From Gammaproteobacteria bacterium GWF2_41_13 (GTDB taxonomy: Bacteria; Pseudomonadota; Gammaproteobacteria; UBA12402), in contig MGXI01000008.1 of the NCBI GenBank assembly GCA_001801315.1, positions 1 through 47,092 on the forward strand: DNA of 47,092 nt, in the 5' to 3' direction. Numbering within the stretch: position 1 is the stretch's first letter; the number at the start of each line of letters is the position of its first letter. Under the pieces are notes generated by a model. It ran no database searches and had not been told where the DNA came from. It worked only from the letters and a program-made list of their open reading frames with translations. Made by a program: the position numbers and the translations under genes. Shown here in pieces: positions 409 to 22,015 of the stretch.

Positions 409-846
409 ATGTTGTCTAAGGATTACGAGGAGATTAAAAACAACGGGGATCTGATCGCTATTATTTTGCGCGCTAATTATACTTCGAAAGAAACTATTTT
501 TTTTGGCCTTCCCGATTTTTCACAACAACTGGGTTATATTGTGTATAAAAAAGGTGGCGTCATAAAGTCACATTTTCACAAAGAAAATCATCGAAAAATC
601 ATGCTGACTCAAGAAGTACTCTTTATTAAAAAGGGTAAAGTGAGAGTGATGCTTTATACAGCCGATCAAGCCTATATCACCTCGAGAGATTTGAATGCTG
701 GGGATACGATTTTTCTTTGTTCGGGCGGGCATGGATTTGAAATGCTTGAAGATGCCGAAATGATTGAAGTCAAGCAAGGCCCTTATTCTGGTAAGGAAAA
801 GGATAAAGTGCTATTTCAGGGAGTTGAAAATGATTCCGGTCAATGA
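409..846 (+). CDS. Cupin-fold protein of sugar-nucleotide locus
   Basis: A 145-residue protein with a single cupin-like beta barrel. The region around GGVIKSHFHKENHRK resembles the metal- or ligand-binding cupin motif 1, and the GDTIFLCSGGHGFEM region resembles motif 2. Its 3' end overlaps the aminotransferase start by 17 bases, so the two are probably translationally coupled. Cupins of this size next to DegT aminotransferases are often sugar isomerases/epimerases or small binding proteins; here the substrate is not evident. The start at 409 follows a GGTGGA ribosome-binding site at 398-403. The fold is fairly secure; the function is open. Confidence 0.75.
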   Translation: MLSKDYEEIKNNGDLIAIILRANYTSKETIFFGLPDFSQQLGYIVYKKGGVIKSHFHKENHRKIMLTQEVLFIKKGKVRVMLYTADQAYITSRDLNAGDTIFLCSGGHGFEMLEDAEMIEVKQGPYSGKEKDKVLFQGVENDSGQ

Positions 847-1948: not shown

Positions 1949-1949
1949 A

Positions 1950-2780: not shown

Positions 2781-2789
2781 GGAATCAAC

Positions 2790-4061: not shown

Positions 4062-4114
4062 CGTTAAGACTATCCTGATAAATAAACAAGGATAAAATTG
4101 TATATGAGGAAAAC

Positions 4115-5113: not shown

Positions 5114-6287
5114 AAAGGATTTTATACCGCTTTCAGAGCCCTGCATAACTGGAAATGCTTGGAAGTATGTCAAGGAATGTTTGGATACAGGTTGGGTTTC
5201 TAGTGCTGGCGACTACGTTGAAAAATTTGAAAAAGCCATGTGTCATTATACCGGAGCGAAATATGCTGTTGCTGTTGTAAACGGAACTGCAGGTCTACAA
5301 ATTGCACTGAAGCTTTCAGGGGTGGAAATTGGCGATGAAGTTTTAGTTCCAACACTGACTTTTATAGCGCCCGTAAATACAATACGCTACCTTGGAGCGG
5401 AACCTGTATTTATGGATTGTGATGAGTTTATGAATCTAGACCCTATTAAGATGGATGAATTCATAAAAATCTCTTGCAGGAAGACTTCCCGAGGTTTGGT
5501 TAATAAAAACACTGGGCGATGTGTAAAAGCAATATTGCCAGTTCATGTCTTTGGCAATCCCTGCGATATGGAGGCCATCATGAGTTTGGCGGATAAGTAT
5601 GACCTTAAAGTAATAGAGGATGCCACTGAAAGTTTAGGATCGCGTTATATCTCAGGTATTTATAAAGATAAATTTACCGGGACAATCGGAGAAGCAGGCG
5701 TATTTTCATTTAATGGCAATAAAATCATTACCACTGGTGGTGGTGGAATGATTGTCACTAATAATAAGCGTTTAGCGGAAAAAGCAAGGTATTTAACTAA
5801 CCAAGCTAAAGATGATCCAATAAAATATATTCATCATGAGATTGGATATAATTTTCGTCTGACAAATTTGCAGGCTGCATTGGGTTTGGCGCAGCTTGAA
5901 CAGCTAAAGAAATTTATAAGAATTAAAAAAAATAATTATGAATTATATCGAAATCTTCTGGACTCTGTAAAAGGTATTCAAGTGTTAGGAATACCGAGAG
6001 GAACTTCTCCTAATTATTGGTTTTATTCATTATTAGTGGAAAAAAAAGAATATGGTATCAGCGCAGAAGAATTAATGAACCACTTAACCAAAAAGAAAAT
6101 TCAATCCAGGCCTGTTTGGTATCTGAATCATTTGCAACGTCCTTATCGCAAGAACCAGGCTTGTAAAATTGAAAAGGCCCCATGGTTTTGTAAAAGGGTT
6201 TTAAATTTACCTTGTAGCACTAGCTTGCAGGAAGAACAAATAAATCGTGTTGTTTTAGCCATTGATGATTTCGCCGCGAGGAAATAA
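5106..6287 (+). CDS. legC: LegC-type sugar 4-aminotransferase
   Basis: A 393-residue PLP aminotransferase of the DegT family, related to the product at 830 but clearly different in sequence. The PLP lysine is Lys206 in FNGNKIITTGGGG, and the DATE segment near 172 carries the conserved acidic residue. It has an insertion around residues 120-140 (KISCRKTSRGLVNKNTGRC) absent from the perosamine-type enzyme, as seen in LegC proteins. It would aminate the 4-keto sugar made by LegB, giving the bacillosamine-type intermediate. It overlaps legB and is followed 25 bases later by the acetyltransferase. Substrate assignment follows from the pathway context. Confidence 0.88.
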   Translation: MSKKDFIPLSEPCITGNAWKYVKECLDTGWVSSAGDYVEKFEKAMCHYTGAKYAVAVVNGTAGLQIALKLSGVEIGDEVLVPTLTFIAPVNTIRYLGAEPVFMDCDEFMNLDPIKMDEFIKISCRKTSRGLVNKNTGRCVKAILPVHVFGNPCDMEAIMSLADKYDLKVIEDATESLGSRYISGIYKDKFTGTIGEAGVFSFNGNKIITTGGGGMIVTNNKRLAEKARYLTNQAKDDPIKYIHHEIGYNFRLTNLQAALGLAQLEQLKKFIRIKKNNYELYRNLLDSVKGIQVLGIPRGTSPNYWFYSLLVEKKEYGISAEELMNHLTKKKIQSRPVWYLNHLQRPYRKNQACKIEKAPWFCKRVLNLPCSTSLQEEQINRVVLAIDDFAARK

Positions 6288-6312
6288 ACGTGTTAGCGCA
6301 ATGGGGTGATTT

Positions 6313-6924
6313 ATGCAAAAGCTTATTTTGATCGGTGGTGGAGGCCATTGCCGAAGTTGTATTGATGTTATTGAAGCGACAGGTTTTTTTGATATTGTTG
6401 GGATTTTAGATGTAGCTCAAAAAATTGGTGAGAAGGTTTTTGATTATTCTATTGTGGGAACGGATAATGATATAAGCAAATTTGTGGCATCGGGGGTGAG
6501 GTTTTTGATTACGTTAGGCCAAATTGGGGCAGGTGAACGCCGCGCAGAAATCTTTATGAAAATTAAAGCGGCTGGTGGTGAGCTGGCTACAATTATTTCT
6601 CCGCGAGCGTATGTTTCGTCGCGGGCATGTGTTGGAGAAGGGACTATCATTATGCATGGCGCGCTTGTTAATGTAGGCGTATCTATTGGCGCAAATTGTA
6701 TTATCAATACAAAAGCGCTTATTGAGCATGATGTCCAGATTGAGGATCATTGTCACATCGCGATAAGGGCTGCTCTTAGTGGAGGCGTATGCGTTGGAAC
6801 AGAAGCTTTTATCGGAGCTGGGGCTGTAGTAGCGGAATATAGAGATGTCCCAGTAAGAGCGTTTATAAAGGCCGCTAGCATATGGTCTGGGTTGAAGGTG
6901 GGGGATGGGAACGCAGATGTCTAA
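6313..6924 (+). CDS. NeuD/PglD-family sugar O/N-acetyltransferase
   Basis: A 203-residue protein with a small N-terminal Rossmann-like domain (LILIGGGGHCRSCIDVI) and a C-terminal left-handed beta-helix of hexapeptide repeats, seen as IIMHGALVNVGVSIGANCIIN and following turns. This is the PglD/NeuD architecture. In PglD the N-terminal domain binds the UDP-4-amino sugar and the helix binds acetyl-CoA. Next to legC it most likely acetylates the 4-amino group (the LegH step); a NeuD-type O-acetylation of the nonulosonic acid is the alternative. The catalytic His is probably in ALIEHDVQIEDHCHI. Its 3' end overlaps the next gene by 20 bases. Confidence 0.85.
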   Translation: MQKLILIGGGGHCRSCIDVIEATGFFDIVGILDVAQKIGEKVFDYSIVGTDNDISKFVASGVRFLITLGQIGAGERRAEIFMKIKAAGGELATIISPRAYVSSRACVGEGTIIMHGALVNVGVSIGANCIINTKALIEHDVQIEDHCHIAIRAALSGGVCVGTEAFIGAGAVVAEYRDVPVRAFIKAASIWSGLKVGDGNADV

Positions 6925-7702
6925 CAGAGAGACGGTTTTTTTTACAGTATGTTATCCAAAGGCTCTCCCCTATATGGATGGCTTTTTTGAATCCTTGATG
7001 AATCAGACAGATCAGGATTTTGATATCCTTGTTGTTAATGATTCTTGTGGGTCATTGGAAGCTCAATTAGAACGCTATCGGAAGACTTTGCGGATACATG
7101 AACTTCAGGCCACAGGGAGTTTGGCAAATGTCCGGCAAGTTGGTTTTGAGGAGATTTTTGCAAGAGGATATAAGCAGGTCGTATTTGGGGATTTTGATGA
7201 TTGTTTCATGCCCGACCGAGTGGCAAAAGTCAGGATGCTTTTACGGGATTTCGATATCATTGTTAATGATGTTAGTTTGTTTGGGGATCGAGAGGATGAA
7301 ATCTATTTTTCTCGACGGATTAAGGATAGATCTCAAATATGTCTGGAAGAGATCTTTACAAAGAATTTCATGGGATTTTCGAATACAGCCGTGCGAGCTG
7401 AATGCTTAAAAGATATTATTCTTGCCGATACAATAGCTGTTGATTGGTATTTGTTCTCGCGCTTGCTCGCCAGAGGAGCTAGAGCAGTTTTTTGTGCGGA
7501 GCCCTTAACGAACTACAGACAGCATGCAGATAATATGGCAACCTTTGTTGGCGACAAAAGTAAAAGAGCTGAAGTCAAGCTCGTTCACTATCAATCTTTG
7601 AAAAGGGATTGTCCTGAATTGATTTCTGCGATTGATAGATTGGGAAAAAGAACAGATGAATTAGAAGTCGTAGTAACAAACCCTTTTTGGTGGGAGGATT
7701 AA
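6905..7702 (+). CDS. GT-A fold glycosyltransferase in the legionaminic block
   Basis: A 265-residue protein with GT2-like features. It opens with FFTVCYPKALPYMDGFFESL and LVVNDS, and an acidic cluster DFDDC near residue 100 stands where GT-A enzymes bind the metal-nucleotide complex. The fold match is partial, so the donor is uncertain. Its position between the acetyltransferase and neuB suggests a role tied to the legionaminic residue, either adding it or adding its acceptor. The ATG at 6905 has an AAGG site at 6895-6898; a second in-frame ATG at 6917 is also possible. The enzyme class is moderately secure. Confidence 0.7.
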   Translation: MGTQMSNRETVFFTVCYPKALPYMDGFFESLMNQTDQDFDILVVNDSCGSLEAQLERYRKTLRIHELQATGSLANVRQVGFEEIFARGYKQVVFGDFDDCFMPDRVAKVRMLLRDFDIIVNDVSLFGDREDEIYFSRRIKDRSQICLEEIFTKNFMGFSNTAVRAECLKDIILADTIAVDWYLFSRLLARGARAVFCAEPLTNYRQHADNMATFVGDKSKRAEVKLVHYQSLKRDCPELISAIDRLGKRTDELEVVVTNPFWWED

Positions 7703-7703
7703 A

Positions 7704-8759
7704 ATGAAGCTACAGTTGAAATCAGAAGTTGTTATAGCTGACTATAGTCAGCCTTATATCATTGCCGAGATCGGCGCGAATCATAATGGGGATATGGATT
7801 TGGCGCGCCATATAATAAAGGTAGCGAAAGAATGCGGTTGTGATGCGGTAAAATTTCAGTCATGGACACCTGATTCTTTGGTTGCGAAAGAAGAATATGA
7901 TCGCAATCAGAAATATGAAGATTCACCTAAAAAACATTTTGGTTCCCTTAGAGATATGGTGGAAAAATACTATTTGCGAGAGGACCAGCATTGGGAACTC
8001 AAGCGATATTGTGACAATATCGGCATTGAATTTTGCTCCACTCCTTTTTCAAAAGAGGAAGCAAATTTGTTGGAAGAAATGAAGGTGCCGTTTTATAAAG
8101 TGGCGTCTATGGATATAAATAACCTGGGTTTTCTTAGTCATGTTGCACGCAAACAGAAACCAATTTTATTATCAACAGGAATGGCTACGCTTGCTGAAAT
8201 TGAAAATGCGATCAGAACAATAGAAGCCGAGGGAAATTCGCAAATTATATTGCTTCACTGCATTTCCATATATCCGCCTGCATATGAAGATATTAATTTG
8301 AATAATATACCGATGCTGCGTCAGGCGTTTGGTTTTCCTGTGGGTTTTTCGGATCATACTATAGGCATTTCGATTCCGCTCGTGTCAGTAGCCTTGGGTA
8401 GTTGCCTCATAGAAAAGCACTTCACGCTAGACAAAAATATGCCTGGCTGGGATCACGAAATTTCTGCTAACCCAGATGAAATGAAAGCAATAGTTGAAGA
8501 ATCACGCAACATTATTAAAGCGCTTGGATCATTTCGTAGAGTGGTTTCGCAGGCTGAAGAAGGGAAAAAATTAAAATTCAGAAGGAGCATAGTGGCATCG
8601 ACCCATTTGGAAAAAGGGCATGAAATAATTCCTACGGATCTTATCTTTAAAAGACCAGGGACTGGTATACCTCCAGATAGGCTAGATTGTATTTTGGGTA
8701 GAAAAGTTAATAAAGATGTAAAAGCAGGCGAGCTCTTGAAATGGGGTGATTTATTATAA
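7704..8759 (+). CDS. neuB: NeuB-family nonulosonic acid synthase (LegI-like)
   Basis: A 351-residue NeuB protein: a TIM-barrel condensing domain from about residue 18 (IAEIGANHNGD) to 280 and a C-terminal SAF/antifreeze-like domain from about 288 (RRSIVASTHLEKGHEI). The VKFQSW and SDHT motifs are typical. It condenses PEP with a 6-deoxy ManNAc-type sugar to give a nonulosonic acid. The neighbouring LegB, LegC, PtmE and LegF point to legionaminic rather than sialic or pseudaminic acid. It starts one base after the previous stop and is followed by ptmE after 16 bases. Family certain; exact product inferred from context. Confidence 0.92.
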   Translation: MKLQLKSEVVIADYSQPYIIAEIGANHNGDMDLARHIIKVAKECGCDAVKFQSWTPDSLVAKEEYDRNQKYEDSPKKHFGSLRDMVEKYYLREDQHWELKRYCDNIGIEFCSTPFSKEEANLLEEMKVPFYKVASMDINNLGFLSHVARKQKPILLSTGMATLAEIENAIRTIEAEGNSQIILLHCISIYPPAYEDINLNNIPMLRQAFGFPVGFSDHTIGISIPLVSVALGSCLIEKHFTLDKNMPGWDHEISANPDEMKAIVEESRNIIKALGSFRRVVSQAEEGKKLKFRRSIVASTHLEKGHEIIPTDLIFKRPGTGIPPDRLDCILGRKVNKDVKAGELLKWGDLL

Positions 8760-8775
8760 TATATCTGGGTAAAAA

Positions 8776-9837
8776 ATGAAAAATATTGAGCGATACACTG
8801 TAAATCACAAGTTGAATATCCGTCATGCTGTAAAGAGTATAAATGAATCTGGTGTTGGATTTGCGGTAGTAGTTGATGGGAAAAATAAAGTCATTGGCGT
8901 GATAACAGATGGTGATTTTAGGAGAGCTATTTTGAATGGGGTGGATTTGAATGAGAGTGTATTGAAAATAACCAACAAAACATTCGAATATGTTCAATCA
9001 GGCTTTTCTAGAGGTGAAGCTATTAACCTACTGAAAAGTGGTAAGATTGAGTTTTTACCCGTATTGGAAAAAAGCAAATTAATTGATATCCTTAGGGAAG
9101 AGGACATTAGAGAGATTACAAGTAAATCTTTTTCGGCTAAGAAAATAAACTTGCCTGTGATCATAATGGCAGGCGGGAAAGGGACTCGATTGGAACCGTT
9201 TACCAAGATACTTCCAAAGCCATTGATTCCGATTGGCGATAAATCTATTATGGAAATAATTATGGATGAGTATGCTAAATACGGAATGACGAATTTTTAT
9301 CTTTCCTTGTTCTATAAAGCAAATATGATTAAATCGTATATGGAGTATCTCGAAAGCGATTATAAGATAGAGTATATTCACGAGCTAAAACCTCTTGGTA
9401 CGGCAGGGGCGTTGAAGTATCTTGAAGGCAAATTGAATACGCCGTTTTTTGTATCTAATTGTGATATTATTATCAAAGAAAATTACAATAAAATATTCGG
9501 GTTCCATAAAAATGGGAATTTTATGTTGACGATGGTGACTGCCATGCGGCATGTAAGTATTCCCTATGGTGTATGTGATCTGCATAAGAATGGTACGTTG
9601 AAAAAGATCAATGAAAAACCCGAATTGGATTTTCTTATTAACTCAGGAATGTATATTTTAGATCCGAAAGCGCTTGAGTATATACCAAAAGATACATTGT
9701 TTGACTTTACGGATTTGATACGGTGCATAACTGATAGAAATTTGAAAGTTGGAGTGTATCCCGTTACTGAAGATGCTTATATTGATATTGGCCAATGGGC
9801 GGAGTATAAAAAGGCCGTAAGCATTTTACAGGTATAA
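8776..9837 (+). CDS. ptmE: PtmE-like CBS/nucleotidyltransferase (GlcN-1-P guanylyltransferase)
   Basis: A 353-residue two-domain protein. Residues 1-118 hold a pair of CBS motifs (GVITDGDFRRAIL; FLPVLEKSKLIDILREEDI). Residues 127-353 are a sugar-1-phosphate nucleotidyltransferase with MAGGKGTRL at 131-139 and LPKPL just after. This CBS plus NTP-transferase layout is that of PtmE of the Campylobacter legionaminic pathway, which makes GDP-glucosamine from glucosamine-1-phosphate and GTP. Its presence argues for the GDP-sugar version of the pathway. It lies between neuB and legF. The CBS domains may sense a nucleotide, but no ligand can be read from sequence. Confidence 0.88.
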   Translation: MKNIERYTVNHKLNIRHAVKSINESGVGFAVVVDGKNKVIGVITDGDFRRAILNGVDLNESVLKITNKTFEYVQSGFSRGEAINLLKSGKIEFLPVLEKSKLIDILREEDIREITSKSFSAKKINLPVIIMAGGKGTRLEPFTKILPKPLIPIGDKSIMEIIMDEYAKYGMTNFYLSLFYKANMIKSYMEYLESDYKIEYIHELKPLGTAGALKYLEGKLNTPFFVSNCDIIIKENYNKIFGFHKNGNFMLTMVTAMRHVSIPYGVCDLHKNGTLKKINEKPELDFLINSGMYILDPKALEYIPKDTLFDFTDLIRCITDRNLKVGVYPVTEDAYIDIGQWAEYKKAVSILQV

Positions 9838-9859
9838 GATAACAATTTTTGAGGAAAGC

Positions 9860-10558
9860 ATGAAGGTTGTAGCAGTTATCCCTGCGAGGGGAGGTTCGAG
9901 GCGTATTCCGCATAAAAATATAATAGAATTCGTTGGTAAGCCATTGATTGAATGGACAATTGAAGCGGCGATAGCGTCACAATTATTTGACAAAATAATT
10001 GTAAGCACTGATGACGTCGCGATCGCAAAGGTTGCAGAAGAATGTGGGATAGAGGTCCCTTTTTTGCGCCAAGCGGCCAGCGATGATATAACACCTGTAA
10101 GCATGGCGACAATTGAGGCAATAAAGCAAGCGCAAAACTATTGGAACGATGAGTATGATGTTGTTGTTCAACTAATGGCGAATTGTCCTACACGAGGAAG
10201 TCAAGAGATAGTGGATTCCTATAATCATTTCACTCAAGCCGAAGTTAATTATCAATTAAGCTGTTTCAAATTCGGGTTTATGAATCCTTGGTGGGCAGCT
10301 AGATTGGACGAGAGCTCCAAACCTGCATTTATATTCCCTGAGTCATTGCAGATGAGGTCACAGGATTTGCCAGATTTATATTGTCCGACAGGCGCTATTT
10401 GGATTGCGAGAGTCCCCAATTTAATTAAAGAAAAAACATTTTATGGGCAAGATCACATATTTTATCCGATTGGGTGGAAAGAAGCATTGGATATTGATAA
10501 TCGAGAAGATCTGGAATTAGCAGCGATTATTTTTAAGTCTAAATTATTTAAAGTATAA
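9860..10558 (+). CDS. legF: CMP-nonulosonate cytidylyltransferase (LegF/NeuA-like)
   Basis: A 232-residue CMP-sugar synthetase with the signature VIPARGGSRRIPHKN at the N-terminus, where CTP binds, and the later DNREDLELA segment conserved in PtmB/LegF enzymes. It activates the free nonulosonic acid made by NeuB to the CMP-sugar used by the glycosyltransferase. It is about the usual length for the single-domain form. It starts 22 bases after ptmE. The family is clear; legionaminate preference follows from its neighbours. Confidence 0.9.
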   Translation: MKVVAVIPARGGSRRIPHKNIIEFVGKPLIEWTIEAAIASQLFDKIIVSTDDVAIAKVAEECGIEVPFLRQAASDDITPVSMATIEAIKQAQNYWNDEYDVVVQLMANCPTRGSQEIVDSYNHFTQAEVNYQLSCFKFGFMNPWWAARLDESSKPAFIFPESLQMRSQDLPDLYCPTGAIWIARVPNLIKEKTFYGQDHIFYPIGWKEALDIDNREDLELAAIIFKSKLFKV

Positions 10559-10621
10559 TGCATAATTATTATTGTGAGTAATTATGTGAGCAAGAGTTAT
10601 TGAACAAAAGGAGAATAAAGG

Positions 10622-11758
10622 GTGAAATATTGTAAAATATGTTTGCAAACCGATACAAGACCAGGCATTTCATTTAGGAAAGATGGTATTTGTTCTGCCT
10701 GTGATTATCGGAGTAAAGAATTTCAAGAGATAGATTGGCTAGAAAGGCAGAAACAGTTAAAGGCGATAGTTGATTGGGCAAAAGAAACTTCAAAAGGGGG
10801 GTATGATTGTGTTATCGGTGTGAGCGGAGGAAAAGATAGTACTTTCCAAGCTTTTTATGCAAAAGAACAACTTGGCCTCAATGTTTTGCTAGTTAATGTT
10901 GCGCCAGATAATCTAACAGATGTCGGTCGCCAAAATTTAGAAAATTTGGTACAAAAAGGATTTGATCTTGTTTCGTTTCGGCCAAATCCAGTTGTGATGA
11001 AAAAACTAACCCGACAATCTTTTTTAAAATATGGTAACCCAGTAAAACCTTCTGAATATCCGTTGTTCGCCGTGCCATATCAAACAGCAATGATGTATAA
11101 GGCCCCGCTAATTATTTGGGGTGAAAATGTCGCTATTACTTTGGGCGTTACGAAACTTGGAATTTCTGGTGATGCCTTAAATGTATTGGGTCATAACACT
11201 CTTGAAGGGATTGAATCGAAAGATTACTGGCTTCATGATGATCTTGTATTAACAGATTTACTGCCGTATAAATTTCCTGAGGTACACGCACTCAGGAAAA
11301 ATCATAAGGCGATTTATTTGAATTATTATGCTAGAGAATGGGGATGGAAAAATAATACAGATTTTTCTGTATCCAAAGGACTGAAAGGAAGAGAGGATAG
11401 GCCTGAATTGACAGGTAGAATAAACCCTTATAATTCTGTTGATGGCGATATCCAAATCGTTAATCAAATGATTAAATATTACAAATTGGGGTTTGGTTTT
11501 GTTACGGATGAAGTTTGTTATTATATTAGAGAAGGCGTAATGTCGAGGAATGAAGCTATCGATCTCGTAGAAAAACATGATGGTAAATGTGGAGAGTTAT
11601 TCATTGAGGAATTTTGCAAATATATAGATATTACTGTCGATGAGTTTTGGAGTCATATGGATAAGCACGTTAATAAAAAGCTATTTTATAAGAATGCTTT
11701 TGGCAAATGGATACCAAAATTTAAAGTAGGCGATGATTTTGAAGAACGTGAAGACTAA
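10622..11758 (+). CDS. N-acetyl sugar amidotransferase (PseA/WbpG family)
   Basis: A 378-residue PP-loop ATPase. The ATP-pyrophosphatase motif is SGGKDS (68-73), and two CxxC pairs (Cys4/Cys7 and Cys24/Cys27) form a likely zinc knuckle. This family converts an N-acetyl group to N-acetimidoyl (acetamidino) on sugars, as in PseA and WbpG. After legF it would give an acetamidino form of legionaminic acid, as found in Legionella LPS. WbpG works with HisH/HisF-type partners that supply ammonia; none is in this window. The GTG start at 10622 follows a strong AAGGAG at 10608-10613. A six-G run lies in the gene at 10796-10801. Confidence 0.85.
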   Translation: MKYCKICLQTDTRPGISFRKDGICSACDYRSKEFQEIDWLERQKQLKAIVDWAKETSKGGYDCVIGVSGGKDSTFQAFYAKEQLGLNVLLVNVAPDNLTDVGRQNLENLVQKGFDLVSFRPNPVVMKKLTRQSFLKYGNPVKPSEYPLFAVPYQTAMMYKAPLIIWGENVAITLGVTKLGISGDALNVLGHNTLEGIESKDYWLHDDLVLTDLLPYKFPEVHALRKNHKAIYLNYYAREWGWKNNTDFSVSKGLKGREDRPELTGRINPYNSVDGDIQIVNQMIKYYKLGFGFVTDEVCYYIREGVMSRNEAIDLVEKHDGKCGELFIEEFCKYIDITVDEFWSHMDKHVNKKLFYKNAFGKWIPKFKVGDDFEERED

Positions 11759-12818: not shown

Positions 12819-14660
12819 ATGGATCAACAAATTAATAAAAAAATTTATTGTAAAAATATTCGGGCTACGGCTTTATATGAATTTTGGGGTGAAAAATACT
12901 CTGAATCGTTGTACTTATGGGAGGGGGCGAAACATAATTTCACGCTAAGCGAAATGGAAAAGATAGCAGAGGAAACGCTGGATGACCTTTTTGCTGCCCC
13001 GGAAGATATTATAGTCGCTAGTGAGTATTGCAAGCAGGTTTATTACAAGATTTTGCCCAAACTTGCTATGAAGTTAAATGAAATATCAGGGGTCAATTTG
13101 CCGGATTCTTTTTGGAGAACGGCCTTTGGTTATTGGTTCTTTAGACATATTTGTATAATGTATGAAAAATACGCCTATCTTTCCAAAGTCGATATAGATC
13201 ATACAAGTATTAAGCTACTTAATAAGAATTCATTCTATATTCCATATGATCATTACGATTATGTCTATTGCTTTTGTAATGATTTTGGGGTGCAGCAGCT
13301 GGTGAGCCTCTATTATTATTTATTCAAGAAAAGCGAGTTTCCTTCTGTATTAATGGAGTTCAATTTAATACCGGCGGAAGCAAATAAGGATATGCGTTCT
13401 GATGATATGGTGCTGTATAAAAGGATCTTTGATTATGGGAAAATTTTAGCGCGAAAAGTATTAAAGGCTCCAAAATGGGTTTTTAGAAAAATAACGCCAA
13501 TTCCCAATATTGAGCCGAGTATAGCTCTATGCGGCGTCGGTTATACGACTAATGTAGCTGCAGCATTATTTTCCGGATCAAAAGGAATGATTAGCCCTAT
13601 TAGTCCTCCCGTTATTCGCATTGACCGTTCTGTGAATATCGAAAGCCGTCAAAAATTATTGGGTATTGAATTTGAAAGTGATTTTGAATATTTTCTTGTT
13701 CAATCTTTATATTATTGTTTGCCCCAGATGTTTCTTGAGCAGTTTCATAATTATTATAATGTCTTTCTAAAAGACATCAAGCGTAAAAAATTCACCCATA
13801 TTGTATCTGAGTATTGGATAAGTGACATTCCTTCGTCAATCTATATTGCAATTGCTCAAAACGAAGGGAGACGATTGATATGCCACGAACATGGTTCTGG
13901 AACAGTGTTTGATAGAACATTCTTGTATTGGATAGAGATACAGGCTTCTGATAAATATCTAACGGTTGGGTGGAAAATCAATGATCAGAAAGTCATCCCT
14001 GGTGGTTTTATATGCCGGGATATAAAACCTTATCAATTCCAGCTAGAGAGGAAAAATATTCTCTATGTGGCGCGTACGAATTTCCCTTATCTTATGGAGT
14101 TCAATGTCTATAATGCCCCAAATACAAAATGGGTTAAGGCGCTTCAGAGAATTCGTGATTTCCACGATTTATTGCCGAAATCGCTTCGTGATAGTTTTAT
14201 TCTTAGGCCAAGGAGAGAAGATTATTTTTGGGATACGGAGTATACATTAGAGACAAAAAATAAAAATATCCGTGTGGATACTGGAGATTTCTCGGATAGC
14301 ATATCAAATGCAAAGATTGTGATTATTGACCATCTTTCTACTGGTGCTGCTGAAATTTTACTCAGAAAAATCCCGTGTCTGATAATACAGGAAGAGCAAC
14401 ATAGCCCCTCTTTTCTAGAGGAAATTGATGAAATATTTGACGAGTTGGAACGTTGTGGCGTAGTGCATAATTCTGCACACTCTGCGGTTTCCCATCTGAC
14501 TAACATTTGCGAAAATGTTCAGCAATGGTGGAACAGTGAAGTCGTTAAGGCGGCTATTGATAAATTAATTTTAAAGACTTTAGCGCCGCCTTCAAAAACA
14601 ATTGACTATCTTCTGTCGTGTTTAAAGGATGATTCCGCATGCCCAAATCAAAGAAAATAG
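12819..14660 (+). CDS. LIC12162-family putative surface-glycan transferase
   Basis: A 613-residue soluble protein resembling the LIC12162 family, first defined in Leptospira O-antigen loci. The start has the family-style TALYEFWGEKYSESLYLWEG. A central part carries RLICHEHGSGT, and near the C-terminus IVIIDHLSTGAAEILLRKIP resembles the nucleotide-binding end of GT-B enzymes. Catalytic function is not established for this family as far as I know. It overlaps the glutamine kinase gene by 22 bases, so co-translation with the phosphoramidate enzymes is likely; it is thus a candidate phosphoramidate or glycosyl transferase. Family placement is from motif memory, not a search. Confidence 0.65.
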   Translation: MDQQINKKIYCKNIRATALYEFWGEKYSESLYLWEGAKHNFTLSEMEKIAEETLDDLFAAPEDIIVASEYCKQVYYKILPKLAMKLNEISGVNLPDSFWRTAFGYWFFRHICIMYEKYAYLSKVDIDHTSIKLLNKNSFYIPYDHYDYVYCFCNDFGVQQLVSLYYYLFKKSEFPSVLMEFNLIPAEANKDMRSDDMVLYKRIFDYGKILARKVLKAPKWVFRKITPIPNIEPSIALCGVGYTTNVAAALFSGSKGMISPISPPVIRIDRSVNIESRQKLLGIEFESDFEYFLVQSLYYCLPQMFLEQFHNYYNVFLKDIKRKKFTHIVSEYWISDIPSSIYIAIAQNEGRRLICHEHGSGTVFDRTFLYWIEIQASDKYLTVGWKINDQKVIPGGFICRDIKPYQFQLERKNILYVARTNFPYLMEFNVYNAPNTKWVKALQRIRDFHDLLPKSLRDSFILRPRREDYFWDTEYTLETKNKNIRVDTGDFSDSISNAKIVIIDHLSTGAAEILLRKIPCLIIQEEQHSPSFLEEIDEIFDELERCGVVHNSAHSAVSHLTNICENVQQWWNSEVVKAAIDKLILKTLAPPSKTIDYLLSCLKDDSACPNQRK

Positions 14661-17488
14661 CCTACACCTTTGTTATTGCCGATCTGTTGCACTTCGGGCA
14701 CTTGCAGCTTTTGATAGCTGCAAAACAATCTTGTAACAAATTTATTTGCGGTGTGTTGACGGATGAGGCTGTTATGTCGTTTAAGGGGCGGCCCATCTCT
14801 GATTATGAGGAGAGAAAGAGCGTCGTGGAGTCGATAAGGTATGTTGATGAGGTTATGATGCAGTGTAGCCAGGACCCCACCGAAAACCTAAAAAAAATAC
14901 AAGCTAAATATCCTGATGCTGAAATTTTATTTGTATATGGAGATAATTGGAAAAATGTGCCCGGCGCTGATTATATTAAGTCCGCTAATGTGAAAACCAT
15001 ACGGCAGCATTTTTATGAGAAACTTAGTAATGAAAATATTTCTTACAAAATCATAGAAACAGTATTGCCTGATAAATCGGGTTTTGAGACATTTACCTCC
15101 GAATTTACCGTAAAAGATTTTGATGTGTTCCGAGGGGAGCGACCACGCCACGTTATTACGACGAAAGCTAAGACACTTCAAACATTAAAGCCTCTTTTAA
15201 AAAAGTCCTATATAGAAAAAACGTATGTCATTACGGTAAAAGAATGGCTGGATTATAAAAACGAGATTTTATACAGTATTCGCGAAAAATTTCGCGGCGG
15301 CAAAATAGTTGTTAGAAGTTCAAGTATCAATGAAGACTCCCTAATTAATTCTAAAGCAGGGTGTTATCATTCTGAGCTCAATGTAGATCCGGACGATTTT
15401 GATCATATTCATCGGGCTATTAATAAAACAATTGCTTCCTATGAAGGGGAAAAATATCTTGAGCAAGTTTTGATACAACAGCAGGCTATAGATATTTATA
15501 TGAGTGGAGTTATTTTTACCCACGATCTAGAAACGTCAGCACCATACTATGTGATTAATTATGACATAACCGGGAAGACTGATACGGTAACAGGAGGCGC
15601 TGGTGGTTCTCTGGCGAAAGTATTTAGAAATACTGAAACCTTTAAATTGCTTCAACCATGGAGGGACATAATAGAAGCCGTCAAGGAAATAGAGGAGATA
15701 ATTCCCGGTTTTGATCTTGATATAGAGTTTGGTGTTAAAAGAAACGGACAAATTGTGCTCTTTCAAGTTAGGCCCTTAGCGGCTAATAGGGACGCGGTAA
15801 AAGTAGAGGTGAATTTAGTTGAAAAAAGTCTTTGTATGGTTGAGGAACATTATTTAAAACTATCTCAATCATTTAAGCAGGCAAACGAAAATACTTTAGT
15901 ATTCAGTGATATGTTATTTTGGAATCCTGCTGAACTTATTGGTCATTGTCCTTCGAATTTGGCTTATAGCATTTTTGAGAAAATTCTTATGGTAAAGGCA
16001 TGGCATCTTGGTATTCAACAGTTGGGATATCCTACCCTTCCTTCGCTTCGACTACTTGAACGTTTTCTGTATAAGCCCTATATTAATGTTAACCTCGCTT
16101 TTCTTGCTCTAATACCAGGTACGGTACCCATAAAACTCCATCAGCGCTTGCAATCTTATTATTTGTCGAAGCTAGATTCTGATCATTCTTTACATGATAA
16201 GGCTGAGTTCGAAATCATGTTCACCTGTTACGATTTTAACCTTCCCTCCAGATTGTGTGCGCTCGAAACTCATGGGTTTTCATCTGAGGATATTCAATCG
16301 ATTCATGATGCTCTGTTGGATTTTACAAAAGATATTTTTAAAAATTATCGAGCTATTTACGATGCACTTAAGGATAAAATAGAAAAGCTCGAAAAATTCA
16401 ACCTTATTCCGTTAACTCAACTTGTCGAGAAAATGAAAGCTGGTCAGGGCATGCAGCTAGTTAATGAGATGTTGGAAAAATGTGAGGAGCTCGGAACGGT
16501 ATCTTTTTCTGCTGTTGCACGCCTTGCTTTTATAGGAGATGCATTGGTGAGAAGCCTTGTCACTTCAGGCGTGATTAGTAGGGAGGATAGAGATCTGATT
16601 ATGAATTCTTTCTCGACAATTGCGACGAGTCTTACAAAGGAGATAAACGAAGTCGCAAGCGGATATGTGCCGATAGAGGCATTTCTTGATAAATATGGCC
16701 ACCTTCGTTCTGGAACCTACGATATACAAAAAGATAGATATGATCGTATTGATCGAAATACTTGGCTGCAAGCAAGAAAAATTTCTAGGGCTGTTTCGAG
16801 TATTAAATCGGAACTTAAGAACAGGATTAATGCCTTTATTTTGGATTCCCCCCTTAAGATTGATTATGAAACTCTATATGACTTTGTAGCTTTATTCATA
16901 TCGGCAAGAGAACACTTCAAATTTATCTATACAAAAACGGTAAGCAATATATTAGAACTGATTGCGGAGGCGGGGAACTCAATGGGTATTTCAACCCGCG
17001 ATTTATCTTGTTTAACGCTTGATCATCTCGATCTGCTTTTTTCCGGAAGACCTGATGAACTATTGCACGCGATCTCTGTGGCTAAACAGGCGTTGTTGAA
17101 AACTTCGCTGATAGACCTTCCGCCACTTATTTTTAGTACTGAAGATTTTAGAATTATTGAGTATCTTTCTTCTAGGCCTAATTTTATTACAGGGAAATCT
17201 GAGATTGGCGAAATTGTTGTATTGGATAATAAAACCAATCTCCAAATAGATATCGACAATAAAATAGTTTTTATAGAAAATGCTGACCCGGGTTATCACT
17301 GGATCTTTTCAAAAAACATAAAGGGTTTGGTGACAAAATATGGTGGGGCGGCTTCACATATGGCTATTTGTTGTGCGGAATTTAATGTTCCTGCAGCCAT
17401 AGGTTGTGGAGAGAAGTACGATAAACTTGCAGCTTGTAAAATGATATCCTTAAACTGCGCTGAAAAAATCATTAAAGAGGCTTTATGA
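14639..17488 (+). CDS. Fusion: TagD-like cytidylyltransferase domain + Cj1418-like L-glutamine kinase
   Basis: A 949-residue protein with two parts. Residues 6-145 are a TagD-like nucleotidyltransferase with HFGH (18-21) and SDYEER (54-59), but the usual C-terminal GTSST-type motif is not recognisable. Residues from about 170 to 949 form a PEP-synthase-like enzyme: ATP-grasp motifs VRSSSINED (225-233), DIEFG (361-365) and QVRPL (376-380), a long helical linker, and a swivelling phosphohistidine domain with GGAASHMAI. The likely phosphorylated His is His907, about 40 residues from the end. This matches C. jejuni Cj1418 (about 770 residues), which makes gamma-glutamyl phosphoramidate from glutamine and ATP. 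It overlaps its neighbours on both sides. Pyruvate phosphate dikinase or rifampicin phosphotransferase function is less likely given the next two genes. Confidence 0.82.
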   Translation: MPKSKKIAYTFVIADLLHFGHLQLLIAAKQSCNKFICGVLTDEAVMSFKGRPISDYEERKSVVESIRYVDEVMMQCSQDPTENLKKIQAKYPDAEILFVYGDNWKNVPGADYIKSANVKTIRQHFYEKLSNENISYKIIETVLPDKSGFETFTSEFTVKDFDVFRGERPRHVITTKAKTLQTLKPLLKKSYIEKTYVITVKEWLDYKNEILYSIREKFRGGKIVVRSSSINEDSLINSKAGCYHSELNVDPDDFDHIHRAINKTIASYEGEKYLEQVLIQQQAIDIYMSGVIFTHDLETSAPYYVINYDITGKTDTVTGGAGGSLAKVFRNTETFKLLQPWRDIIEAVKEIEEIIPGFDLDIEFGVKRNGQIVLFQVRPLAANRDAVKVEVNLVEKSLCMVEEHYLKLSQSFKQANENTLVFSDMLFWNPAELIGHCPSNLAYSIFEKILMVKAWHLGIQQLGYPTLPSLRLLERFLYKPYINVNLAFLALIPGTVPIKLHQRLQSYYLSKLDSDHSLHDKAEFEIMFTCYDFNLPSRLCALETHGFSSEDIQSIHDALLDFTKDIFKNYRAIYDALKDKIEKLEKFNLIPLTQLVEKMKAGQGMQLVNEMLEKCEELGTVSFSAVARLAFIGDALVRSLVTSGVISREDRDLIMNSFSTIATSLTKEINEVASGYVPIEAFLDKYGHLRSGTYDIQKDRYDRIDRNTWLQARKISRAVSSIKSELKNRINAFILDSPLKIDYETLYDFVALFISAREHFKFIYTKTVSNILELIAEAGNSMGISTRDLSCLTLDHLDLLFSGRPDELLHAISVAKQALLKTSLIDLPPLIFSTEDFRIIEYLSSRPNFITGKSEIGEIVVLDNKTNLQIDIDNKIVFIENADPGYHWIFSKNIKGLVTKYGGAASHMAICCAEFNVPAAIGCGEKYDKLAACKMISLNCAEKIIKEAL

Positions 17489-18171
17489 CTCCAATGATTA
17501 TTTTTATTAGTCAAAAGACAATAATGGATAGGCATGGTGTGGAGCTGGATGCGCTTGAAACAACCTACATCAATTTTTTTGAAAATGAAAATATTTTCCC
17601 TAAAGGGGCCGTTTTTATACCGGTGCCCAATAATCCTGAGATTACGGCGCATATTGCACATACGCTAATGCCAAATATGATAATCCTGACGGGTGGGAAT
17701 AATGTTGATCCAAAGTTATTTGGATCTGATGCTGCGTTGGGTGATTTGGCCCATAATAGGGATATAACAGAAAAAAGTCTTTTTGATTATGCTGTTTCGA
17801 ATGCCGTGCCAGTATTAGGAATATGTCGTGGGTTTCACTTCATTAATGTATTACTTAAAGGTAAATTGACGTTAAATATTAACGACCATCTTCCAGCTGC
17901 CCAGCATGCCTGTTTATATGAAGGCAAGAGATATATCGTTAATTCATTTCATAATCATGCAATACACTCTGAAGATCTTGCCGCGGAATTGAGTCCCATT
18001 GTTGTAGCCGAGATGACTGATATTGTTGAAGCTTATAGTGGAAGGATATTGAGTAAGGTAGGGATGTCATCTGTTCTTGGTGTTCAATGGCATCCTGAAC
18101 GACCTGGTGGAGATATTGATTTATTCAAAAAGCTAGTCAAACAATTTTTATTTGAAGAAGGCCAACCGTGA
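17485..18171 (+). CDS. Class I glutamine amidotransferase-like hydrolase, Cj1417-like (gamma-glutamyl-CDP-amidate hydrolase)
   Basis: A 228-residue class I glutamine-amidotransferase fold. The triad is visible: Cys114 in GICRGF, and His203 and Glu205 in WHPE. The LTGGNNVDPKLFG segment and SFHNHAIH are typical of the gamma-glutamyl hydrolase (PuuD-like) branch. In C. jejuni the homologue Cj1417 removes glutamate from gamma-glutamyl-CDP-amidate to release cytidine diphosphoramidate. The start overlaps the upstream stop as ATGA, and its stop overlaps the next GTG, so the three genes are probably translationally coupled. Alone it could be read as a PuuD-type polyamine enzyme; the flanking kinase and cytidylyltransferase make the phosphoramidate role far more likely. 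Confidence 0.85.
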   Translation: MTPMIIFISQKTIMDRHGVELDALETTYINFFENENIFPKGAVFIPVPNNPEITAHIAHTLMPNMIILTGGNNVDPKLFGSDAALGDLAHNRDITEKSLFDYAVSNAVPVLGICRGFHFINVLLKGKLTLNINDHLPAAQHACLYEGKRYIVNSFHNHAIHSEDLAAELSPIVVAEMTDIVEAYSGRILSKVGMSSVLGVQWHPERPGGDIDLFKKLVKQFLFEEGQP

Positions 18172-18941
18172 AGGCTATTATTCTTGCAGCAGGGATGGGT
18201 ACCCGGATGGGTAAATACGCCAAAGAAATTCCTAAAGGGATGGTGTCGTTTAATGGGAAGCCGCTTCTTCAATGGCAGATTGAAAGGCTAAGAGCTGTTG
18301 GAATCAGTGATATCAGTATTGTAACTGGTTATGAGGCTAGAGCTATAACTTTCCCAGGTATAACTTACTATCACAATTCTAACTATGCAGTAACGAACAT
18401 GGTGGAATCGTTGATGTGCGCGCAAAGGGCTCTGCACGATGATGTGCTGATATCCTATGCTGATATTATTTATGATTTAAAGTTAGCGAAATTAATGGTG
18501 GAAAGCCATTTTGATATTGGTGTTGCTGTTGATGAATTATGGCGTGACTACTGGATGATGAGATATGGGGGTACGGAGACTGACCTTGAAACGCTAACAG
18601 TCTCCGATAACGATAGGATCGTTGAGCTAGGGAGGCCGGTGAATTCTTCCGAGGGGATACACCATAGATATATAGGGCTTATCAAATTCTCAGCACTAGG
18701 AATTAACAAGGCGATAGAGCTATATAACAAAAAGAAGGTGAAAAATGAGAGTTGGATCCAATCAGGAAAATCATTTGCTCAGGGGTATATGACTGATTTG
18801 CTTGATGAGCTGATTGGCGACGGGAATGTCGTGCGCCCTATTGTCACGCGGAACGGGTGGCTTGAGTTTGATACCGTTCGGGATTATGAAATGGCAGCTG
18901 AGATGTTAGCGATTAGAGGGAACAGGAGTATCGTTTCGTGA
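18168..18941 (+). CDS. NTP-transferase, Cj1416-like CTP:phosphoglutamine cytidylyltransferase
   Basis: A 257-residue nucleotidyltransferase with the signature LAAGMGTRMG (6-15), KPLLQWQIERL and a metal-site-like SYADIIYD near residue 97. It resembles the LicC/Cj1416 branch, and the length is that of Cj1416, which transfers CMP onto the phosphoglutamine made by Cj1418. Gene order here (kinase, hydrolase, cytidylyltransferase) is the same as the transcription order of Cj1418-Cj1417-Cj1416. The GTG start overlaps the previous stop by 4 bases. A choline-phosphate cytidylyltransferase (LicC) is the main alternative, but no choline kinase or choline transporter is present. Confidence 0.82.
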   Translation: MKAIILAAGMGTRMGKYAKEIPKGMVSFNGKPLLQWQIERLRAVGISDISIVTGYEARAITFPGITYYHNSNYAVTNMVESLMCAQRALHDDVLISYADIIYDLKLAKLMVESHFDIGVAVDELWRDYWMMRYGGTETDLETLTVSDNDRIVELGRPVNSSEGIHHRYIGLIKFSALGINKAIELYNKKKVKNESWIQSGKSFAQGYMTDLLDELIGDGNVVRPIVTRNGWLEFDTVRDYEMAAEMLAIRGNRSIVS

Positions 18942-20272
18942 AATCTTTGCGTTCTAGTATTTATCGAAATGCCGCATATGGGATATTCGTTTTCGTTGTT
19001 GGGGCCTCAATGATAATTTTTACAAAGTCTCCAATTGCCTTTTTATGGTTCATCGGCTTGCTGTGTTTGGTCGAAGTGGGGTCGTATTTTTTAGTGTGCT
19101 TTGTAAGAAAAAACTTCCCGTGGTTTATTATGCCAAAGGATTTTTTTCCTCCTATAGACAAACAAGGGCTCAAAGAGTTTATTAAGCACGGTTATGATTC
19201 TGAGCTGGGATGGGTGCGGAAGCCGCTTACACAAAAAGATGAAATAGGTCAGAACGGTAGCAGAACCCAGTATACCATCAATGCTTTTGGTGGCCGCTCA
19301 AACCCCGGTCATGAAGAACTGAAAAGCCTCATTTCATGTTATGGAGACTCATTTACTTTTTGTAGGCAAGTAAATGATCATGAGACTTTTGAGTGGTACC
19401 TTTCAAAAATCACAAAAACGAATGTGTTGAATTTTGGTGTGGGTAACTACGGTCTTGATCAATCCATTTTAAGACTTTTTCGCGAATATCCATCAAATAA
19501 GACAAAAATCGTGATTATGGGTGTTGTGCCATCTACGATAGTGAGAATTTTATGCGTATGGAAACATTATAACGAATTTGGTAATGCGCTTGGTTTTAAG
19601 CCGAGATTTCAATTTTCAGCGGAAGGTATTGAATTGGTAAGGAACCTCATCGATACTGAAGAAAAACTGGATCATTATAAAGATTTTATTTCAGAAATAA
19701 ATAAATATGACGAATTTTACGAGACTAAATTCAAAAAGGAAATGCTTGGGTTTCCATATTTTATTTCAATTATGGCAGATCCTATGAGGAATATCTCGAT
19801 TATAGCTATGGTGTTATGGAGAAAATTTCTTAATAAAGGAAAGAAAGGGCAACCCTATCCTCCCGCGATGAAGGTGATAATGGACCGTAATTTGAAATTG
19901 CGGGTTTCTCTTTTTAATAAAAATCGTGAAGCGGTAGCTCTGCTGCAGCAGCTTATTGAAAAATTCATAGAATATGGAAAGAAGAATGATTTCACTCCTG
20001 TTTTTTTATGGATGCCTCAGAAGGATGATATTTTGCACATACGGGAGAAAAAAGATGTCTTTTATGGCCAATTTATATCACAAATTCAAGAAAAATTAGT
20101 TACTATCGATCTTACTGATCTAATTCTTCATTATGAAGAATTAGATGAACTGTACAGCGATGACAATCAATACGGGGGGCATCATACTAAAAAAGCAAAT
20201 TCGATAATCGCCGATTTTATAAATACAACATTGATGCAAAGGGGAATTTATGAAAATAAACAAATCAAATAA
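18938..20272 (+). CDS. Membrane-anchored SGNH-hydrolase-like protein
   Basis: A 444-residue protein with two hydrophobic segments near the N-terminus (about 12-29 and 33-55), then a soluble region with SGNH-like blocks: YGDSFTF (135-141, possible nucleophile Ser138), NFGVGNYGLDQ (block with Asn170) and a late GGHHTKKAN (His416). The usual Asp three residues before the catalytic His is not obvious. SGNH proteins in such loci transfer or remove O-acyl groups. The GTG start overlaps the cytidylyltransferase stop by 4 bases, so it occupies the position of the CDP-amidate kinase gene Cj1415 in Campylobacter, but it is not a kinase. A six-G run lies at 20174-20179. Its role in the phosphoramidate module is unknown. 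Confidence 0.68.
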   Translation: MKSLRSSIYRNAAYGIFVFVVGASMIIFTKSPIAFLWFIGLLCLVEVGSYFLVCFVRKNFPWFIMPKDFFPPIDKQGLKEFIKHGYDSELGWVRKPLTQKDEIGQNGSRTQYTINAFGGRSNPGHEELKSLISCYGDSFTFCRQVNDHETFEWYLSKITKTNVLNFGVGNYGLDQSILRLFREYPSNKTKIVIMGVVPSTIVRILCVWKHYNEFGNALGFKPRFQFSAEGIELVRNLIDTEEKLDHYKDFISEINKYDEFYETKFKKEMLGFPYFISIMADPMRNISIIAMVLWRKFLNKGKKGQPYPPAMKVIMDRNLKLRVSLFNKNREAVALLQQLIEKFIEYGKKNDFTPVFLWMPQKDDILHIREKKDVFYGQFISQIQEKLVTIDLTDLILHYEELDELYSDDNQYGGHHTKKANSIIADFINTTLMQRGIYENKQIK

Positions 20273-20285
20273 AGGAGTTGACAAG

Positions 20286-21287
20286 ATGGATGCGAAGACA
20301 TTTTATGGCACCGAACAGAGAAACACTATCACTTATCTTGAGTTCGGAGAAATTGATATTGTTGAAGGAGAAAAGAAGATTTGGAATTTTCAATTGCATC
20401 AAAAGGCTTATGATTGGCTAATGCTGGGGCGCTATAGCAATGATTTGTTTAATACAATGAAAATGGAGGAATTGTTGGAGTCGGGAAATATGCAAGAAAT
20501 GATAAATCTTTACAATGAAGAAATCCATCATGAAGACGAAGCATCGTTAAATCTTGCTAAATTAATCGCCGTTGCCGTAACACATAAAATTCCGGTTTTG
20601 CCGAAGCCTTCTTTTTATGAGCTTGGGCAAACTATTTTTGGATGTATTGAAGGCATGGAGTTTTATAAAAATTTATTGAAATGTGCTAACATTAAATTCC
20701 CGGATGTAAATTTAAAAAATGTCACATGGTATGGGGTCGATATTTCGGAGTTATTTAATTATCTTTCACTTGTATTACACCAAAACTACAATGTTGTTAC
20801 CATGTTAACGACGGAATCGCTTCCATCCAAAATGGATGTTTTTTTTGCGAAAGGAATTTCAATTTTGTATGCAGTTCGCACATTGGATCAATTTTTCGCT
20901 ACGATACGTAAAGGGAAACTTGCTGTTTTTGATTATTCTTTCTCGTTAGGAAAAGAGGAGGATACAACGATCGGCAGCGGTAAAACCGTAAGGTATTTGA
21001 ACTATTCTGATTTCTTGAATGCGCTGAAGAAAGCGGATGAAGTCATGTACGTGAAAAAATCAAATTCAAAAATCATAAAAGATAAAAATCGTATTTGGCT
21101 TGATTGTATATTTGGTGAAAAATCGTTATGTGAAGAATATATTAAGCTAGATACATCCGTGAGGATTGCTCTTGTGCAGCGTTTTGAAGGAATACAAAAC
21201 ACGGGGAAATTTTTAAACAATGATATAAGTCCGGAATGGGTCGCTGTTGAGAATTATCATCATTGTAATACAAAGGATAGGTTATGA
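20286..21287 (+). CDS. Unrecognised protein, weakly methyltransferase-like
   Basis: A 333-residue protein I cannot place in a family. The middle (about 165-240) has a weak Rossmann-like rhythm: NVTWYGVDIS, then MDVFFAKGISILYAVRTLDQFF, then GKLAVFDYSF, which recalls motifs I-IV of SAM methyltransferases, but the glycine-rich motif I is not clear. No signal peptide or membrane segment is visible. AAAGGAG at 20271-20277 sets the ATG at 20286; an earlier in-frame start at 20250 would overlap the previous gene and lacks a site. Its stop overlaps the LicD-like start as ATGA. Co-transcribed with the phosphoramidate genes, so a decoration role is likely. Confidence 0.6.
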   Translation: MDAKTFYGTEQRNTITYLEFGEIDIVEGEKKIWNFQLHQKAYDWLMLGRYSNDLFNTMKMEELLESGNMQEMINLYNEEIHHEDEASLNLAKLIAVAVTHKIPVLPKPSFYELGQTIFGCIEGMEFYKNLLKCANIKFPDVNLKNVTWYGVDISELFNYLSLVLHQNYNVVTMLTTESLPSKMDVFFAKGISILYAVRTLDQFFATIRKGKLAVFDYSFSLGKEEDTTIGSGKTVRYLNYSDFLNALKKADEVMYVKKSNSKIIKDKNRIWLDCIFGEKSLCEEYIKLDTSVRIALVQRFEGIQNTGKFLNNDISPEWVAVENYHHCNTKDRL

Positions 21288-22015
21288 TTGCATGGATGAA
21301 AAGAAAACTTAGGTGGGTTAAGAGGGCTTTTCGTAAGATAACTTTCCGGTTGGACAATTTTGAAAATATATCCAGGGATGAGCTTCTTTGTAGGGAATAC
21401 ATTGAATATGCCTTGATCGATAAAAGTAAAAGGCCGCGAGAAAATCTTATCAAAACGATGTCGAAAGGATGTGGGGTGCTTGAGGAGATTGGGGTGAAAT
21501 ATTGGCTTGGGAGAGGAACTCTGTTGGGGTTTTATAGAGATAATGATTTCCTCCCAAACGATATAGATATTGATATAGATGTTTATACCGATAAAGATAT
21601 ATACAAGATTATCCAGAAAATGCCCTTTGAAGTATTATTTGTGACTAATTGTAGAGGGCATTATATGCAGTTAGCTTTTTTCGATAGAGAAACAAACATA
21701 ATCTTTGACATATTTTTTTATTTTGAGAGTGGCGATAAATGGTATAACAGGAATTGTTTTGGATATTTTTGGCTGCCGTCTAATCAGTTTGATAAGTTAG
21801 GGATAATGAATTTTGACGGGCGAAATTATCCGGTGCCTCTTGATTCTGAGTGGTATTGTCGATTCTGGTATGGTGAAGACTGGAAAACTCCAAAAAAACA
21901 GAGTGCGGATTGGACAATTGAATATAGAAACAATTGTAAAGGTTTCATTTTTGAAGGGGTGAAAAATGTGACGGATCTTTGTTATTATAGGGATGATGCA
22001 GAAACGAGATGTTAA
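21284..22015 (+). CDS. LicD/fukutin-family phosphotransferase
   Basis: A 243-residue protein with the LicD nucleotidyltransferase-like fold signature: WLGRGTLLGFYRDNDFLP (75-91) and the acidic metal-binding run NDIDIDIDV (92-100). LicD enzymes move phosphocholine, and fukutin relatives move ribitol phosphate, from a CDP-linked donor onto a glycan. Here it ends a block of overlapping genes whose predicted product is CDP-phosphoramidate, also a CDP-linked phospho group. It is therefore a good candidate for the step that attaches phosphoramidate, or a phosphoalcohol, to the polysaccharide. No choline genes are present. Fold assignment good; substrate is inference. Confidence 0.75.
   Translation: MIAWMKRKLRWVKRAFRKITFRLDNFENISRDELLCREYIEYALIDKSKRPRENLIKTMSKGCGVLEEIGVKYWLGRGTLLGFYRDNDFLPNDIDIDIDVYTDKDIYKIIQKMPFEVLFVTNCRGHYMQLAFFDRETNIIFDIFFYFESGDKWYNRNCFGYFWLPSNQFDKLGIMNFDGRNYPVPLDSEWYCRFWYGEDWKTPKKQSADWTIEYRNNCKGFIFEGVKNVTDLCYYRDDAETRC

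Follow-up and report, generated by a model that had tools for sequence, protein, structure and literature searches.

We examined a stretch of 47,092 nucleotides (hereafter the window) from Gammaproteobacteria bacterium GWF2_41_13 (contig MGXI01000008.1, assembly GCA_001801315.1; genome label G000, 1.22 Mb in 77 contigs, 80% complete), in which three adjacent genes are predicted to encode a kinase (K), a hydrolase (H), and a nucleotidyltransferase (N). An earlier sequence-only reading had likened this trio to a pathway for cytidine diphosphoramidate (CDP-NH2), for which the nearest known system is that of Campylobacter jejuni: Cj1418 (L-glutamine kinase), Cj1417 (gamma-glutamyl-CDP-amidate hydrolase), Cj1416 (CTP:phosphoglutamine cytidylyltransferase), and Cj1415 (CDP-amidate 3'-kinase). 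The likeness consists of three families of the same described kinds, placed in one gene run within a surface-glycan locus. Open reading frame (ORF) coordinates confirmed that the trio genes are consecutive and overlapping on the + strand, with a 4-base overlap at both K/H and H/N, and also revealed two features that had been overlooked. K carries a separate N-terminal domain, and the overlaps continue beyond the trio to give a run of seven genes (UP, K, H, N, D1, D2, and D3, named in order along the + strand) that spans 12819-22015, each ORF beginning before the preceding one stops, and that is closed by a gap of ~230 bases after D3. The run is presumably co-transcribed. The trio and the parts of K are as follows.

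14639-17488, + strand: K, ORF of 949 amino acids (aa)
14681-14956, + strand: CTP_transf_like domain of K, residues 15-106, with an HFGH motif (PF01467, 46.2 bits)
17258-17461, + strand: phosphoenolpyruvate (PEP)-utilizer mobile domain of K (PF00391, 46.6 bits)
17357-17359, + strand: phospho-His 907 of K, in the mobile domain (His kept in 83/84 relatives)
17485-18171, + strand: H, ORF of 228 aa
18168-18941, + strand: N, ORF of 257 aa

By sequence, K appears to be a glutamine-kinase-type protein. Its Pfam domains are PPDK_N and the PEP-utilizers mobile domain, the latter being the C-terminal phosphohistidine domain that had been proposed for the first gene, and both are points of likeness to the C. 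jejuni kinase. Residues 171-946 match NF004508 at 718.5 bits (cut-off 501), while PEP-synthase and rifamycin-transferase models reach at most 47 bits. In a tree of 83 kinases and 4 PEP synthases, the two groups were split by a very long branch with a Shimodaira-Hasegawa-like approximate likelihood ratio (SH-aLRT) support of 100, and K thus does not group with PEP synthase.

H has Peptidase_C26/GATase domains, and its top NCBIfam match, as for all 16 of the related hydrolases scanned, is NF045546, ‘gamma-glutamyl-CDP-amidate hydrolase’ (71.8 bits; PuuD model, 36 bits), which is a further likeness to the C. jejuni set. The predicted active-site residues Cys114, His203, and Glu205 are present as the sequence-only reading had it and are unchanged in 62-63 of the 64 related hydrolases. 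H would thus be gamma-glutamyl-CDP-amidate hydrolase-like, its equivalence to Cj1417 not being settled by sequence alone. As a genome search term NF045546 is too broad, with matches in every control genome. Lone hydrolases of H's family (L001 and L002, 164-180 bits to the trio profile) were seen in genomes without a kinase above the cut-off, so this family is not confined to the trio. N is an NTP_transf_3 protein (PF12804, 68 bits) that contains the expected LAAGMGTRMG motif, with G9, G11, R13, and K23 invariant in 62/62 relatives. Its best solved match is LicC, the CTP:phosphocholine cytidylyltransferase 1jyk; at the level of the fold family N is LicC-like, as expected of a CTP user. We regard N as a candidate CTP:phosphoglutamine cytidylyltransferase.

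The trio is a real, conserved gene set. Relatives were sought in one genome per species with only two short peptide patterns, so that the counts are lower bounds; of 107 kinase relatives found, 80 were kept, representing about 20 phyla including archaea (fetched kinase-bearing loci are labelled with L-numbers, e.g., L033). Across many phyla, 53 of 82 loci kept the K-H-N order on one strand, which rules out chance adjacency of the trio. Kinase and hydrolase are moreover fused in opposite orientations, K then H in L114 and H then K in L100, which ties the two steps together. L114 (MT837632.1, 652-3687) is a 1011-aa fusion from human faeces in a record labelled bacteriophage; by eye, its flanking genes are thioredoxin reductase-, ribose-phosphate pyrophosphokinase-, and Mur-ligase-like, of the bacterial housekeeping type, and the record is probably a gut bacterial contig rather than a phage. 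The viral contigs searched held no relative, MT837632 being the sole ‘phage’ match. Campylobacter was absent from the 80 listed GTDB loci and from the plasmid matches, and no solved structure was named Cj1416, Cj1417, or Cj1418. Two metagenome-assembled genomes titled Bifidobacterium breve (L103 and L105) have kinases that nest inside Solirubrobacterales sequences; their titles are probably wrong.

The domain fused to K sets the window apart from most of these loci. Among solved structures it comes closest to a PEP phosphomutase entry (5x3d), in its cytidylyltransferase part, and to glycerol-3-phosphate cytidylyltransferase. The same fusion, as a single open frame, occurs in six archaeal loci, L033-L038, from Nanoarchaeota, Woesearchaeota, Altiarchaeales, and a euryarchaeote; among the loci found here, the HxGH-fused form was otherwise seen only in the window, and the HxGH motif is invariant across all seven proteins. 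In the kinase tree, the kinases of L033-L038, the window, and the human-gut L114 form a clade with support 100. H and N also lie nearby on the same strand in these archaea, and individual loci have further genes in common with the window: a LicD-like gene in L034, a D1 relative in L036, and a D2 relative in L033. Their other neighbours differ, and reverse-strand genes split H from N in L033 and L036-L038. Related cytidylyltransferases carry R-T-x-G-x-S-T at the C-terminal motif. Because the fused domain has (R/K)-(L/I)-S-x-x-x-I at this position, its activity is plausible but not certain.

A different fusion was seen in 34 further kinases (L053, L054, L059-L061, L074-L111, and others), which have an N-terminal NTP_transf-like domain that has lost its glycine loop and lysine. 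An intact, separate nucleotidyltransferase copy usually lies downstream in those loci, and the degenerate copy may bind instead of catalysing.

Other trio loci frequently carry accessory genes. Cj1415 is a protein that we take to be APS (adenosine phosphosulfate)-kinase-like, and APS-kinase-like proteins were present in 31 loci (NF004041 for L040), CysQ in 7, and a methyltransferase in 18 (loose threshold); these match the Campylobacter Cj1415-1418 set and are what would be expected to make 3'-phospho-CDP-NH2, recycle 3'-phospho-CMP, and O-methylate. The APS-kinase-like gene accompanied 18 of 25 bare kinases as compared to 4 of 29 with a nucleotidyltransferase-fused K (Fisher p = 1.9e-5, with kinship ignored). 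We considered the fused domain as a substitute for the Cj1415-like kinase and rejected it: the anti-correlation is strong, yet the fused clades are few and kinship alone may explain it. The archaeon of L036, which has both a fused K and D1, also possesses an APS-kinase-like gene (106 bits), at a different place in the genome. In the woesearchaeote locus L037 (4923-7362), an APS kinase fused to an inositol-phosphatase-family (CysQ-like) protein and a sulfotransferase-like gene, identified by eye, stand just before the fused kinase.

The remaining genes of the run and the surrounding glycan genes are listed below.

12819-14660, + strand: UP, LIC12162-family transferase, 613 aa (TIGR04331, 242.6 bits, cut-off 225)
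18938-20272, + strand: D1, membrane-anchored SGNH-fold protein (predicted model, SGNH matches; local confidence score, pLDDT, 82)
20250-21287, + strand: D2, ORF of 345 aa, no Pfam match
21284-22015, + strand: D3, LicD-like phosphotransferase (PF04991, 27 bits, cut-off 22.6)
764-11758, + strand: legionaminic acid genes, namely LegB, LegC, NeuD-, NeuB-, nucleotidyltransferase, CMP-sugar synthetase, and WbuX (profile matches)
1950-4061, + strand: Wzm/Wzt, ABC-2 permease and Wzt genes (profile matches)
44389-46444, + strand: Gmd and Fcl, GDP-fucose genes (TIGR01472, 608 bits; NF047922, 445 bits, cut-off 500)

Three of the run's genes are candidates for the transfer step. D3 passes the Pfam cut-off and reaches 49 bits against NF045866 (cut-off 225). 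A LicD gene was found in 3 of 38 trio genomes and never lay more than about 11 kb from the trio, and one of the three is the fused-kinase archaeon L034; the proximity gives weak support to a role in transfer because glycan genes cluster anyway. D1, whose model has two long N-terminal helices (best Foldseek E 8.7e-6 to SGNH), has relatives at 36-53% in six other kinase-bearing loci, and in five of them (L040, L052, L068, L071, and L073) the relative directly follows the Cj1415-like kinase, making D1 a candidate group-transfer or modifying enzyme. UP has relatives at 45-47% in L071 and L073, directly before the kinase in the latter (Chlorobiaceae); its predicted model is of low confidence (pLDDT 59) and matches GT-B glycosyltransferases, so that by structure UP may be called no more than GT-B-like, and it is a candidate group transferase. 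The phosphoramidyl transferase would most likely be D3, followed by D1 or UP. For D2, no Pfam match was obtained, and its relatives among the fetched loci were limited to L053 and L033, both of which carry the trio. A methyltransferase like those beside other trios was considered for D2 and dropped, there being no profile match.

The neighbours named in the sequence-only reading (Wzm/Wzt, legionaminic acid, and Gmd/Fcl genes) were all recovered. LegB, LegC, and Gmd exceed their family cut-offs, the Fcl-like protein falls below its own, and the locus also contains a WbuX amidotransferase, several glycosyltransferases, and a UDP-GlcNAc 2-epimerase. A kinase above the family cut-off was found in 0 of 6 other genomes of the family to which G000 belongs and in 2 of 185 genomes sampled across the class; the trio is thus probably an accessory set that was gained horizontally. 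A 16S gene, sought as a taxonomic marker, was absent from the G000 assembly.

We consider it likely that the trio makes CDP-NH2 by way of CDP-glutamine, providing an activated phosphoramidate for a surface glycan. K would use ATP to phosphorylate the side-chain amide of L-glutamine through a phospho-His relay, and a cytidylyltransferase, most likely N but possibly the domain fused to K, would join the resulting phosphoglutamine with CTP to give CDP-glutamine, from which H, with its Cys-His-Glu triad, would release CDP-NH2 and glutamate. Homology and context support these first steps; we infer the substrates, the role of the fused domain and its division of labour with N, and the transfer step. 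In that step a co-transcribed transferase would pass the phosphoramidate, without the 3'-phosphorylation used in Campylobacter, to a sugar of an O-antigen or capsule, the acceptor being the glycan made by the legionaminic acid, fucose, and Wzm/Wzt genes around the trio. That a LicD-like protein takes the group directly from CDP-NH2 is a tentative proposal, held with much lower confidence than the CDP-NH2 route itself.

Several observations weigh against this reading. H falls far under the NF045546 equivalog cut-off of 250, and PuuD is not cleanly shut out, as E. coli PuuD lies in a poorly supported part of a short, long-branched tree near the window protein. The second cytidylyltransferase domain has no place in the Campylobacter scheme, the match of D3 to LicD is weak, 35 of the 38 trio genomes are without LicD, and Cj1416-1418 and Cj1421/1422 were set beside the window proteins by description only. 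Finally, no Cj1415-like kinase was found in the window, nor an APS kinase of any kind in the 80%-complete G000. The CDP-NH2 pathway as first proposed is partly supported, being favoured by the kinase family, the K-H-N order, and the active-site residues, and disfavoured by the hydrolase score and by the 3'-kinase not being found. With a second cytidylyltransferase-like domain on K and no 3'-kinase found in the assembly, the last Campylobacter steps cannot simply be transferred to the window, which differs from C. jejuni also in the LicD-like, SGNH, and GT-B-like genes of its run.

If the trio made another CDP-activated head group, K would act on a different amide or alcohol, whose CDP derivative would be formed by the HxGH domain or N, H would resemble PuuD in trimming off a gamma-glutamyl group, and a LicD-like protein would transfer the phospho group in the manner of phosphocholine decoration. 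The resemblance of the HxGH domain to glycerol-phosphate and ethanolamine-phosphate cytidylyltransferases, the LicD-like nature of D3, and the distant position of H within NF045546, with PuuD in the same poorly supported part of the tree, are all consistent with such a scheme. However, K is above the NF004508 cut-off, and K-H-N also occurs without the HxGH domain, often with the APS-kinase-like, CysQ, and methyltransferase genes of a Campylobacter-type route, so we judge this improbable. A milder departure shares the first three steps with the CDP-glutamine route and differs in its ending: 3'-phospho-CDP-NH2 would be the true donor, a Cj1415-like kinase would be encoded in the fifth of the genome that the assembly lacks, and the transfer would fall to D1 or UP. 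The incompleteness of the assembly, the position of D1 relatives directly after the Cj1415-like kinase, and the distant APS-kinase-like gene of the L036 archaeon would fit, but the lack of any APS kinase in G000 and the scarcity of the gene beside fused kinases argue in the other direction, leaving this a possible ending toward which we do not lean. That the three proteins are an ordinary PEP synthase, PuuD, and LicC brought together by chance is very hard to credit: their single Pfam domains are indeed those of the ordinary families, but the kinase tree, the gene order, the kinase-hydrolase fusions in both orientations, and the family scores speak against it.

On the favoured reading, the window holds a variant of the CDP-NH2 gene set, with a fusion also seen in archaeal loci and no 3'-kinase found. 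The Campylobacter Cj1415-1418 set makes CDP-phosphoramidate 3'-phosphate (PMC11800397), orthologues of Cj1416-1418 are present in other Campylobacter species (PMC3907429), and a 2022 review labels the glutamine kinase ‘C. jejuni-specific’ (PMC9561416). Against that label, sets of the trio type occur in dozens of genomes from about 20 phyla, archaea among them, suggesting that so unusual a surface chemistry reaches much further than has been assumed, although wider homologues may have been mentioned earlier. Few P-N bonds are met with in biology; if the CDP-NH2 reading is true, decoration with phosphoramidate would count as general surface chemistry and not as a peculiarity of Campylobacter. 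Unmethylated phosphoramidate has been described on Xanthomonas campestris lipopolysaccharide (LPS)/lipooligosaccharide (LOS) (PMC3907429) and on Shewanella MR-4 LPS (PMC8042644); these are precedents for the product type in gammaproteobacteria, without the O-methyl group, and are known chemically, no tie to trio genes having been established here. If the CDP-NH2 reading is true, they would be a natural place to seek related genes. The LicC/LicD phosphocholine system resembles the window in its CTP-dependent activation and LicD-type transfer to a glycan, but the kinase and hydrolase of the trio belong to other families, and the activated group would be an NH2-phosphoryl rather than phosphocholine. 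A second type of phosphoramidate pathway, common to archaea and bacteria and distinguished by a kinase-fused cytidylyltransferase, direct use of CDP-NH2 with no 3'-phosphorylation, and a LicD-like or SGNH enzyme that would be a new class of phosphoramidyl transferase, is a speculative extension that we hold as somewhat doubtful; if true, archaeal surface glycans would bear P-N bonds. D3, D1, and UP are concrete, named candidates for the transfer step.

Some minor observations concern the neighbourhoods. A ~180-aa protein without a family match and a formyltransferase-like protein recur beside the trio (L033, L034, L041, L043-L045, L049-L051, L062, L064, L095, and others). The legionaminic acid locus of the window has two LegC-type aminotransferases (764-1948 and 5106-6287), of which only the second passes the family cut-off. 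Further along the window, a stand-alone cytidylyltransferase-like gene (34026-34466) adjoins a CDP-alcohol phosphatidyltransferase-like gene (34610-35320), and the pair may represent an additional CDP-dependent decoration system within this locus.
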